A stretch of DNA of 64,000 nt, taken from contig NZ_JAVIWS010000001.1 of NCBI RefSeq assembly GCF_031323975.1, positions 186,001-250,000 on the forward strand. Direction: 5' to 3'. The DNA comes from Escherichia ruysiae. GTDB lineage: Bacteria > Pseudomonadota > Gammaproteobacteria > Enterobacterales > Enterobacteriaceae. The notes beneath the pieces were generated by a model that made no database searches, was not told where the DNA came from, and saw only the letters and a program-made list of their open reading frames with translations. Made by a program: the position numbers and the translations under genes. Below, piece by piece: positions 44,106-53,712 of the stretch (position 1 is the first letter of the stretch; each line of letters begins with the position of its first letter).

Positions 44106-46855
<2,750 letters not shown>

Positions 46856-46867
46856 GGAATAGGTGAG

Positions 46868-47518
46868 ATGAGCCATCAGGATGAGCTGCCGCTACCCGGC
46901 GTCAGCGAAGTTGATGAGGTGAAGCGTCAATGGTTGCAGGGGATGCGTCACACCGGTGATACGGTCAGTGAAGACATCGCAGAACCAGAACCTACAGACG
47001 TCCTGGCAGAGTTTATCCGCCAGCATTCGGTAGCGGGTCAACTGGTGGCGCGCGGCGTGTTTCTCTCGCCACCCTATTCGGTTGCTGAAGAGGATCTGTC
47101 TGTTTTTCTGGAAGGCATAAAACAGAACGGAGACTACGCGGATATCGCCTGTATCACGGGAACTCACGATGATTACTATTACTCAACGCAGGCCATGAGC
47201 GAAAACTACGCGGCGATGTCTTTGCAAGTTGTGGAGCAGGACATTTGTCGCGCCATTGCTCATGTCGTTCGTTTTGAGTGCCAGACGTATCCGCGACCCT
47301 ACAAAGTCGCCATGCTGAGGCAAGCGCCATATTACTTCCAGGACGCGCAGATTGAAGCCGCGATAGCCGCGATGGATGTTGCCCCTGAATATGCCGATAT
47401 ACGCCAGGTTGAGTCATCGACAGCGGTGCTGTACCTGTTTAGTGAGCGGTATATGAGCTATGGCAAGGCTTATGGCTTATGCGAATGGTTCGAGGTAGAG
47501 CAGTTTCAGAATCCCTGA
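46868..47518 (+). CDS. ydhW: Unknown operon protein YdhW
   Basis: The 216-residue product has no recognisable catalytic or metal motif and no signal peptide. It is acidic with aromatic-rich stretches (THDDYYYSTQAMSENYAAM, PYYFQDAQIE). It is conserved in the operon 12 bases after ydhV. A dedicated chaperone or assembly role for the AOR subunit is possible because such genes often sit next to Mo/W enzymes, but nothing in the sequence proves it. Confidence 0.8.
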   Translation: MSHQDELPLPGVSEVDEVKRQWLQGMRHTGDTVSEDIAEPEPTDVLAEFIRQHSVAGQLVARGVFLSPPYSVAEEDLSVFLEGIKQNGDYADIACITGTHDDYYYSTQAMSENYAAMSLQVVEQDICRAIAHVVRFECQTYPRPYKVAMLRQAPYYFQDAQIEAAIAAMDVAPEYADIRQVESSTAVLYLFSERYMSYGKAYGLCEWFEVEQFQNP

Positions 47519-47581
47519 AATTTCAGGGAAATGTCATGGACAGGGTGGACAGTTGCAGCCACTGCATTAGGGGATAATCAG

Positions 47582-48250
47582 ATGTCCTTCACTCGACGCA
47601 AATTTGTTCTGGGGATGGGAACAGTAATCTTTTTTACTGGTTCTGCGTCTTCGCTGTTAGCGAACACCAGGCAAGAAAAGGAAGTTCGGTATGCCATGAT
47701 TCACGATGAGTCACGGTGCAATGGTTGTAATATTTGCGCCCGTGCATGTCGCAAGACCAATTACGTTCCTGCTCAGGGAAGCCGTTTATCGATAGCACAC
47801 ATTCCTGTCACCGATAACGACAACGAAACGCTGTATCACTTTTTTCGCCAGTCATGCCAGCACTGCGAAGATGCTCCTTGCATTGACGTTTGCCCAACAG
47901 GGGCGTCGTGGCGTGATGAGCAGGGGATCGTGCGGGTAGAAAAATCGCAGTGCATCGGCTGCAGTTATTGCATTGGCGCTTGTCCGTACCAGGTTCGTTA
48001 CCTTAACCCTGTGACTAAAGTAGCGGATAAATGTGATTTCTGCGCCGAGTCCCGGCTGGCAAAAGGGTTTCCGCCCATTTGCGTCAGCGCCTGCCCGGAA
48101 CACGCATTGATCTTTGGCCGCGAAGATAGCCCAGAAATTCAGGCGTGGTTACAGGAAAATAAATACTATCAATATCAGCTACCTGGTGCCGGGAAACCGC
48201 ATTTGTATCGCCGGTTCGGTCAACATTTGATTAAGAAGGAAAATGTATGA
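47582..48250 (+). CDS. ydhX: Tat-exported 4Fe-4S ferredoxin subunit YdhX
   Basis: A 222-residue protein from MSFTRRKFVLGMGTVIFFTG; the twin-arginine motif TRRKFVLG and the following hydrophobic segment with SASSLLA cleavage region indicate Tat export. Four cysteine groups follow (CNGCNICARACR, CQHCEDAPCIDVCP, CIGCSYCIGACP and the CDFCAE/CVSACP pair), typical of NrfC-like carriers. It overlaps the start of ydhU by four bases. It could move electrons between the periplasm and YdhU. Confidence 0.92.
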   Translation: MSFTRRKFVLGMGTVIFFTGSASSLLANTRQEKEVRYAMIHDESRCNGCNICARACRKTNYVPAQGSRLSIAHIPVTDNDNETLYHFFRQSCQHCEDAPCIDVCPTGASWRDEQGIVRVEKSQCIGCSYCIGACPYQVRYLNPVTKVADKCDFCAESRLAKGFPPICVSACPEHALIFGREDSPEIQAWLQENKYYQYQLPGAGKPHLYRRFGQHLIKKENV

Positions 48251-49032
48251 ACCCGTCGCAAAATGCTGAACAGTTTCAGAGCCAGTTGGCGAACTATGTA
48301 CCACAGTTCACCCCTGAATTTTGGCCGGTGTGGCTGGTCATTGCCGGGCTATTGCTGGTTGGGATGTGGTTAGTCCTGGGCCTGCACGCTTTGCTTCGTG
48401 CTCGTGGTGTGAAGAAATCAGCCACCGATCATGGCGAGAAGGTTTATCTTTACAGCAAGGCGGTCAGATTATGGCACTGGTCGAACGCATTACTCTTCGT
48501 ATTGTTGCTGGGAAGTGGGCTAATTAATCACTTTGCGCTGGTGGGCGCAGCTGCGGTCAAAAGTCTGGCTGCTGTGCATGAAGTTTGTGGATTCTTGTTA
48601 TTGGTATGCTGGCTTGGCTTTGTTCTGATTAATGCCGTTGGGGGTAATGGTCGCCACTATCGCATTCGTCGTCAAGGATGGCTGGGGCGAGCGGTGAAAC
48701 AAACGCGATTTTATCTGTCTGGCATTATGCAGGGGGAAGCACACCCTTTTCCGGCGACAATGCAGTCTAAATTTAACCCCTTACAGCAGATAGCCTATAT
48801 CGGGGTGATGTATGGATTACTGCCGTTGTTACTGGTGACGGGGCTGCTGTGTCTCTATCCGCAAGTCGTGGGCGATGTGTTTCCTGGCGTAAGATACTGG
48901 TTATTACAAGCGCATTTTGCTCTGGCATTTATTAGCCTCTTTTTCATCTTCGGTCATCTCTATCTTTGCACTACGGGGCGTACTCCGCACGAAACCTTTA
49001 AATGTATGATCGATGGCTATCACCGACATTAA
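48247..49032 (+). CDS. ydhU: Membrane cytochrome b YdhU
   Basis: A 261-residue integral membrane protein with about five hydrophobic segments. It belongs to the PhsC/cytochrome b561-like family; the histidines in RLWHWSNALLFV, GSGLINHF and AVHEVCGFLLL, and HFALAFISLFFIFGHLYL, are the likely haem ligands. It would exchange electrons with the quinone pool. Coupled to ydhX by overlap. Confidence 0.9.
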   Translation: MNPSQNAEQFQSQLANYVPQFTPEFWPVWLVIAGLLLVGMWLVLGLHALLRARGVKKSATDHGEKVYLYSKAVRLWHWSNALLFVLLLGSGLINHFALVGAAAVKSLAAVHEVCGFLLLVCWLGFVLINAVGGNGRHYRIRRQGWLGRAVKQTRFYLSGIMQGEAHPFPATMQSKFNPLQQIAYIGVMYGLLPLLLVTGLLCLYPQVVGDVFPGVRYWLLQAHFALAFISLFFIFGHLYLCTTGRTPHETFKCMIDGYHRH

Positions 49033-49035
49033 CGT

Positions 49036-49848
49036 ATGATCATTACGCGAGAGAACCTGCGAGAGTGGCGTGTAGGAGCGGTCATATACCGCTGGTTTTT
49101 GCGCCATTTTCCGCAGGACGGCAGCTATGCCGATGTTCACCATGCGCTGATCGACGAAGGGTATACGGATTGGGCAGATAGTCTGGTTGAGTATGCGTGG
49201 AACAAATGGCTGACAGACGAAAACTTTGCCCGCCAGGAAGTTTCTTCTATGCAAAAACTGGTCACAGAACCAGAGGAACCGACATTTTGCCGCCAGTTCT
49301 CCAGTGCCGAGGATAACGCACGCGTCGGGTGTTGCGACGATAACGCCAGAATAGTTACAGCAGGTTATGCGGCGCAAATTGCCAGCACGGGCTACAGCGT
49401 ACGGATGGCTAGTGTGGGTTTTAACAGCCATATTGGCAGCTCAGGCGAGCGTGCCCGCGTGGCAGTGGCGGGTAACTCGACTCGAATCAGCAGTGCCGGA
49501 GATGGTAGTCGTATTGCAAATGCCGGGATGAGAGTACGCGTCTGTACTCCAGGTGAAAGGTGTCATGTCGCCAGTAATGGCGGTCTGGTACAAATTGCCA
49601 GCTTTGGCGCAAACGCGAAAATTGCTAACAGCGGTGATAATGTTCACATCATTGCCAGCGGTGCTAACTCAACAGTAGTCAGTACGGGCGTGGTTGACTC
49701 GATTGTCCTCGGGCTTGGTGGCAGCGCCGCACTGGCATATCATGATGGCGAAAGAGTGCGCTTCGCCGTCGCCATTGAAGGTGAAAACAATATCCGTGCC
49801 GGAGTCCGCTATCGTCTCAATGCACAGCATCAGTTTGTTGAGTGCTGA
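49036..49848 (+). CDS. ydhT: YdhT, protein with a nonapeptide tandem repeat
   Basis: A 270-residue protein with two parts. Residues 1-80 are mixed charged and aromatic (REWRVGAVIYRWFLRHFPQD) with no signal peptide. Residues about 91-216 are a perfect-period nine-residue tandem repeat, xGxx-small-[RQHK]-[IVM]-x-[SN], for example TGYSVRMAS, VGFNSHIGS, AGNSTRISS, AGDGSRIAN, FGANAKIAN; 14 copies can be aligned. A beta-solenoid is the natural prediction. Function unknown; last gene of ydhYVWXUT and abutting ydhS end to end. Confidence 0.88.
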   Translation: MIITRENLREWRVGAVIYRWFLRHFPQDGSYADVHHALIDEGYTDWADSLVEYAWNKWLTDENFARQEVSSMQKLVTEPEEPTFCRQFSSAEDNARVGCCDDNARIVTAGYAAQIASTGYSVRMASVGFNSHIGSSGERARVAVAGNSTRISSAGDGSRIANAGMRVRVCTPGERCHVASNGGLVQIASFGANAKIANSGDNVHIIASGANSTVVSTGVVDSIVLGLGGSAALAYHDGERVRFAVAIEGENNIRAGVRYRLNAQHQFVEC

Positions 49849-52455: not shown

Positions 52456-53712
52456 ATGGGATCTGATGCAAAAAACTTGATGAGCGACGGGAAAGTGCAA
52501 ATTGTTAAGACCGGCGAGGTCATTAGCGCGACTCAACTTACTGACGGTGAGTTGCTCGTTGAGACAGGCGGAAGAGCAGAAAACACCGTAGTGACAGATG
52601 CGGGTTGGCTGAAAGTGGAAACTGGTGGGATCGCCAAAGGCACACAATATGGCAACAATGGCACGCTATCGGTCAGTGACGGTGCAATTGCCACAGACAT
52701 TGTTCAATCTGACGGTGGAGCAATTAGCCTCTCAACGCTCGCTACTGTTAATGGTCGCCATCCCGAAGGTGAATTTAGCGTTGATAAGGGCTATGCCTGC
52801 GGTTTGTTGCTGGAGAATGGCGGAAATTTGCGCGTACTGGAAGGTCATCGGGCAGAAAAAATTATTCTCGATCAGGCTGGTGGTTTATTGGTCAACGGGA
52901 CGGCTTCATCAGCAATAGTGGATGATGGCGGTGAATTGTTGGTGTATCCGGGTGGGGAAGCCGGCAATTGTGAGATTAATCAGGGCGGTGTCTTTATGCT
53001 GGCGGGGAAAGCCAGTGATACGTTGCTTGCTGGTGGCACCATGAATAATCTCGGTGGTGAAGACGATAATACCATTGTTGAAAATGGAGCCATTTACCGT
53101 CTGGGGACGGATGGCCTTCAGCTTTATAGTTCCGGTAAGACGCAAAACCTGGCCGTTAATGCTGGTGGTCGGGCTGAAGTGCATGCTGGTACGCTGGAAA
53201 ACGCGGTCATACAAGGTGGGACGGTGATCCTGATGTCACCCACCAGCGCGGACGAAAATTTTGTTGTAGAAGAAGATCGAGCACCGGTTGAACTGACCGG
53301 GAGTGTTGCCGTTCTGGACGGTGCTTCAATGATTATTGGCTATGGTGCAGATCTGCAACAATCAACGGTTACGGTACAGCAGGGTGGCGTGTTGATTCTC
53401 GATGGCAGTACGGTAAAAGGTGACAACGTCACTTTAAATGTTGGCAACGTCAATCTCGATGGCGGAAAAGTGTGGCTGATCACGGCAGCAGCCACACATG
53501 TGCAACTGAAAGTGAAACGCCTGCACGGAGAGGGAACGATTTGCCTGCAAACCAGCGCGAAAGAAATTTCACCTGACTTCATCAATGTGAAAGGGGAAGT
53601 TAGTGGCAATATCCTCGTTGAGATAACGGATGCCAGTCGGCAACCAATTTGCAGTGCGCTTAAACTGCAACCTGACGAAGACAGGATTGGCGCAACGCTC
53701 CAGCCCGAATAA
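52456..53712 (+). CDS. ydhQ: AIDA-like repeat protein YdhQ, passenger domain only
   Basis: A 418-residue protein made of about 19-residue AIDA/pertactin-type repeats (LLVETGGRAENTVVTDAGW, LKVETGGIAKGTQYGNNG, LLVYPGGEAGNCEINQGG, AEVHAGTLENAVIQGG), which form a right-handed beta-helix in autotransporter passengers. The N-terminus MGSDAKNLMSDGKVQIV has no signal peptide and there is no C-terminal beta-barrel, so the usual secretion route is absent. Function unknown. It may be a relic or a cytoplasmic beta-helix. Confidence 0.85.
   Translation: MGSDAKNLMSDGKVQIVKTGEVISATQLTDGELLVETGGRAENTVVTDAGWLKVETGGIAKGTQYGNNGTLSVSDGAIATDIVQSDGGAISLSTLATVNGRHPEGEFSVDKGYACGLLLENGGNLRVLEGHRAEKIILDQAGGLLVNGTASSAIVDDGGELLVYPGGEAGNCEINQGGVFMLAGKASDTLLAGGTMNNLGGEDDNTIVENGAIYRLGTDGLQLYSSGKTQNLAVNAGGRAEVHAGTLENAVIQGGTVILMSPTSADENFVVEEDRAPVELTGSVAVLDGASMIIGYGADLQQSTVTVQQGGVLILDGSTVKGDNVTLNVGNVNLDGGKVWLITAAATHVQLKVKRLHGEGTICLQTSAKEISPDFINVKGEVSGNILVEITDASRQPICSALKLQPDEDRIGATLQPE

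Follow-up and report, generated by a model that had tools for sequence, protein, structure and literature searches.

YdhT, encoded in the ydh operon, is related to a family of phage nonapeptide-repeat proteins

Results

The ydhT locus

Within a 64,000-nucleotide stretch of Escherichia ruysiae DNA (hereafter the window), ydhT lies behind ydhVWXU, with 3 bases between the ydhU stop and the ydhT start (Table 1). The start region of ydhX shows a twin-arginine-like stretch, TRRKFVLGM, and the excerpts of PMC12096430 and PMC13328260 describe the function of YdhV as not known. YdhT passes the NCBIfam model NF007410 (protein YdhT; cut-off 300) with 454.4 bits over the whole protein, from residue 2 to 270, and shows no difference from the YdhT defined by that model; the window copy, carried by an Escherichia genome, is a plain orthologue. 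Identity to the window ydhT is 80-90% in every one of the 5,350 E. coli records that matched it, while one locus labelled 'E. coli strain E69' encodes a YdhT that is 99% identical to that of the window at the protein level; the window genome thus probably represents another lineage of Escherichia. On the basis of its PF16168 passenger repeats, the neighbouring YdhQ would be a second solenoid-type protein, starting 2.6 kb after ydhT; Pfam returned no match for a YdhQ translocator.

Table 1 Features of the ydhT locus in the window.
Feature	Position	Strand	Description
ydhV	44669..46855	+	AOR/WOR family large subunit
ydhW	46868..47518	+	No Pfam match at E <= 1
ydhX	47531..48250	+	4Fe-4S protein
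ydhU	48247..49032	+	Cytochrome b561-type membrane subunit
ydhT	49036..49848	+	270 aa; NF007410 454 bits
YdhT helical N-domain	49036..49254	+	Residues 1-73; WFxxxFPxGxxY; common to phage proteins
YdhT nonapeptide array	49306..49683	+	Residues 91-216; 14 units, one predicted 4-residue strand each
YdhT last unit-like turn and C-terminal cap	49684..49845	+	Residues 217-270
ydhQ	52456..53712		418 aa; AIDA/Ag43-type passenger repeats (PF16168) and Pertactin match

A gapless nonapeptide array in YdhT

Translation of the array yields exactly 14 gapless nine-residue units, of which 12 have glycine at position 2, 13 have R, H, K or Q at position 6, and all 14 have I, V or M at position 7. The mean BLOSUM score at lag 9 across residues 88-234 is 1.20 per residue, compared with -0.60 ± 0.17 for shuffled sequences, and none of 2,000 shuffles scored as high at any lag between 5 and 39; the scores at lags 18, 27 and 36 are likewise high. 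These scores confirm the 14 gapless nonapeptides that a preliminary description of this DNA had read from the sequence alone. That description had also stated that the 27-base DNA copies have diverged, in agreement with a 27-base lag identity of 0.42 and with the silence of Tandem Repeats Finder, which reported nothing at the array because of this divergence. The nine-residue period holds in homologues, where its breakdown had been named as evidence against the repeat. The array occupies the coordinates first assigned to it, although the solenoid reaches further, with strands predicted from residue 87 and at residues 220-225, into the cap.

We compared the array with known repeat classes. Collagen-like repeats, the label carried by ORF-55 of Edwardsiella phage GF-2, have glycine at every third residue; YdhT lacks (Gxx)x4, and its lag-3 identity is 0.056. 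The GGxGxD motif of RTX nonapeptide repeats is unmatched in YdhT. Pentapeptide repeats follow A[DN]Lxx with a period of 5, and both motif and period are absent from YdhT, which has no Pfam match to this class; unlike the pentapeptide-repeat proteins AlbG, EfsQnr and MfpA, YdhT has a period of 9. The hexapeptide left-handed beta-helix ([LIV]Gxxxx, period 6) finds a single isolated match at residue 127 and no period of 6, while the AGYGST-type octapeptides of the 16-residue ice-nucleation repeat are unmatched and lag 16 is not elevated. As for Ag43/AIDA passenger solenoids, PF16168 matches YdhQ and not YdhT. The earlier statement that this is no standard named repeat holds insofar as no Pfam family names it, the two Pfam matches listed for YdhT both falling under the family cut-offs, but NF007410 has the protein and PHROG 4433 matches it weakly (E 1.6e-4).

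AlphaFold2, run with 46 sequences, returned a model with a mean pLDDT of 91.9, in which a helical N-domain is followed by one short strand per unit and by a C-terminal cap, in line with the solenoid proposed previously. With high confidence, YdhT is thus predicted to be a three-part protein in which a beta-solenoid of about 15 units stands between the helical N-domain and the cap. Comparison of folds leans towards a right-handed beta-solenoid for the modelled repeat, probably with two units per coil; Foldseek found no PDB match to the model at E <= 0.001. No signal peptide is visible by eye, and the protein is probably cytosolic.

Relatives of YdhT in bacterial viruses

A protein search aligned YdhT over its full length with GF-2 ORF-55 (33% identity, E 9e-46) and identified further relatives in Komagataeibacter phage phiKX1, Paracoccus phage Shpa, Pseudomonas phages and others. 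The phage and prophage arrays are near-perfect, with units such as SSGxxARIG, AGFSGxxAR or SAASNTGxx, and lead into the same kind of cap, in which L225, G226, G229, D237, R240, R242, G249, E250, A255 and Y259 are invariant among 13 aligned sequences. Their N-terminus is a YdhT-type N-domain in some and DUF7666 (PF24703) in others. YdhT therefore has in common with the phage nonapeptide-solenoid proteins (PHROG 4433/27197, DUF7666) the gapless period of 9, the glycine at position 2 and the cap, and GF-2-like members additionally have its N-domain. YdhT is kin to a tailed-phage protein family, a relationship that the preliminary description overlooked. The repeat thus already exists in nature, in a phage repeat family that is known but has no name.

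Searching IMG/VR, we found 73 loci with a YdhT-type N-domain, 57 of which continue in frame into at least three nonapeptides; 12 are cut by a contig end, one has an early stop and three lead into a six-residue repeat. The last three combine the N-domain with GIEAGx units and a different C-terminus, as if the N-domain were an adaptor for different solenoids. At loci L147 / L239, the N-domain frame enters the array off-frame and yields a QLRRRRTNR-type nonapeptide, with the usual array in an overlapping frame.

Six of 11 annotated phage records have a repressor, antirepressor or antiterminator gene within about 4 kb upstream of the relative. This gene immediately precedes the relative in GF-2 (N-like gene) and phiKX1 (antirepressor) and lies further upstream in Pseudomonas phages Flu_PA14_4, YA3, phi2 and 5399. 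No regulator label of this kind appears near the relative in the annotated records of Shpa, Dulem virus 31, P7869, phi1 and BF1-TP2. Dulem virus 31 (PP511318.1) is classed under Microviridae, a label that looks doubtful for a record of 35.8 kb with exonuclease and replisome organizer genes.

Operon and phage-like copies form separate groups

We examined 180 loci: ydhU and ydhX adjoin the gene in 65, and ydhV, W, X, U and S are all missing beside it in the other 115. Array identity was compared in 96 proteins with at least eight units (49 operon; 47 phage-like, including L036). The 27-base lag identity is 0.40-0.51 in operon arrays (median 0.44, n=49), in contrast to 0.57-0.91 in 46 phage-like arrays. 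Phage-like arrays, with a median of 0.84, consist of nearly identical copies, and their length varies from a few units to 40. The L036 stretch (CP025887.1, 'Escherichia phage 503046', 15434-21177) carries ydhV (part), W, X, U, T and S (part), and thus looks like bacterial chromosome, making it an operon copy under a phage record. In Candidatus Symbiopectobacterium 'North America', ydhT is split over two overlapping frames and looks broken.

For the tree, 131 proteins were reduced to 126 with both domains and to 102 after identical rows were merged. A single branch separates operon from phage-like rows (SH-aLRT 99; 112 columns, unrooted), and GF-2 is among the phage-like rows nearest the operon group by mean distance. 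With 112 columns, no outgroup and 41 of its 99 forks open, the tree does not prove the direction of transfer. Of 53 phage-like rows, 52 have a cysteine six residues before the conserved WF of the N-domain, whereas none of 49 operon rows has it; we claim kinship with the phage family and not the same function. Conservation across 27 operon sequences is 0.68 in both the repeat and the N-domain, 0.40 in the linker and 0.80 in the cap, residues 217-265 being the best conserved part.

Co-occurrence with YdhV and purifying selection

In 295 Enterobacteriaceae genomes, YdhV and YdhT each exceeded their cut-off in 27, and the two sets of genomes are identical. YdhT is absent from one additional genome, in which YdhV is present only as pieces. 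Weaker matches to the YdhT profile occur without YdhV in 14 more genomes, and the three such loci that were fetched (L028, L029, L030) have no neighbouring ydh gene. A weak profile match (E 2e-4) also lies antisense over the ydhT of one genome (G125:C30:28598-28951, minus strand). Across 394 genomes of the order, YdhV was found in 11, seven of them in another family. These seven loci have an iron-sulphur gene and, in six cases, a YdhW-like gene, but neither YdhU nor YdhT was found at any of the loci, one of which (L206) ends 1.6 kb downstream. This suggests that enzymes of this type do not as a rule require YdhT.

At least 80% of ydhT is present in one place in 5,345 of 5,426 E. coli genomes, and among the E. 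coli matches listed, 39 of 40 ydhT rows are full length. YdhT is under purifying selection: in five Escherichia pairs, dN/dS is 0.067-0.107 for the whole gene and 0.050-0.070 for the repeat region, values that are rough because whole-gene dS is 0.88-1.25. YdhT changes faster than YdhU (dN 0.077-0.095 versus 0.046 in three pairs, L086-L088).

Discussion

The closest relatives of YdhT are found in bacterial viruses, and YdhT therefore looks like a captured viral protein. We favour, with a probability of roughly 0.55, the reading that a phage repeat protein entered the operon in a single capture and was retained as an accessory to the YdhV system, with the phage-to-operon direction being inferred. 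A single capture would have placed ydhT behind ydhU in the ancestor of the ydhVWXUT carriers, after which array expansion may have halted and the N-domain cysteine been lost, leaving YdhT under purifying selection along with YdhV. Present-day YdhT would be a cytosolic, non-catalytic accessory of the YdhVWXU system, whose solenoid may act as a rigid spacer or offer a surface for docking, and whose N-domain and cap may provide the contact sites.

Alternatively, YdhT might retain a phage-type function, such as phage interference, restriction or host regulation, and merely ride in the ydh operon, which we regard as unlikely. The regulator genes near the relatives in 6 of 11 phage records are in keeping with such a role, as is a case in Serratia symbiotica, for which the following rests on the excerpted text and tables of PMC12505973. 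Every LT clone except LT-07 resists phage LASphi; LT-05 is resistant, is absent from the list of clones with LPS mutations, and carries only two mutations, a 54-bp deletion in a gene named ydhT_1 and a dam_4 substitution. By our own reading of the tables, ydhT_1 at 782,372 sits within the mitomycin-inducible MC prophage (at 771,733, 48 kb), and 54 bp is the length of two units. However, LT-05 has the second mutation, LT-06 is resistant as well, with no listed LPS mutation and ydhT_1 unchanged, and in those portions of the paper ydhT appears in a table only. The strict co-occurrence of YdhT with YdhV points instead to the enzyme, operon copies have lost the N-domain cysteine, and neither YdhT nor any of three phage relatives gave a match in PADLOC.

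A stronger version of the capture reading, in which YdhT was domesticated once as an obligate partner of a respiratory-type molybdoenzyme and its solenoid acts as a docking rod of fixed length for YdhVWXU assembly, appears improbable. If it were true, the phage versions would be length-variable docking proteins acting on host respiration or envelope complexes.

Reverse transfer, by which phages acquired YdhT from the operon, seems improbable. It is compatible with an unrooted tree in which one branch divides the two groups, but the phage side is far more varied, with DUF7666 architectures and several unit consensus types, and its members span Pseudomonas, Paracoccus, Komagataeibacter and Bacteroides phages. 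Operon copies, by contrast, were found only in Enterobacterales genera (for example Escherichia, Citrobacter, Budvicia, Brenneria and Proteus), and the YdhV loci of the other family are without YdhT.

Very improbable is the scaffold or sensor working through a continuous basic face that the preliminary description had suggested: 11 of 14 units do have R, K or H at position 6, but position 3 is acidic in six of 14, the net charge of residues 91-216 is only +3, arrays of 107 relatives (proteins with a cap and at least four units) range from -27 to +6, position 6 is less conserved than the glycine in 27 operon sequences (0.65 versus 0.89), two units per coil would put the position-6 residues on two opposite faces, and nothing was found in favour of a sensor.

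As far as the literature tells, what is new is the single, frozen, enzyme-linked YdhT branch in the ydh operon. Searches of open-licence papers showed none tying YdhT to phages or describing the repeat, barring the prophage position in the PMC12505973 tables; the 'ydhT' of PMC5120140 is, from its context, yhdT.

These findings give the least understood operon partner of YdhV a probable source and a predicted fold. They also set a boundary that can be tested, with YdhT present in 27 of 27 Enterobacteriaceae genomes with YdhV over its cut-off and not found at the seven YdhV loci of the other family. The kinship also links a large phage family, PHROG 4433, to a gene open to deletion in E. coli K-12, through which the function of that family becomes accessible.
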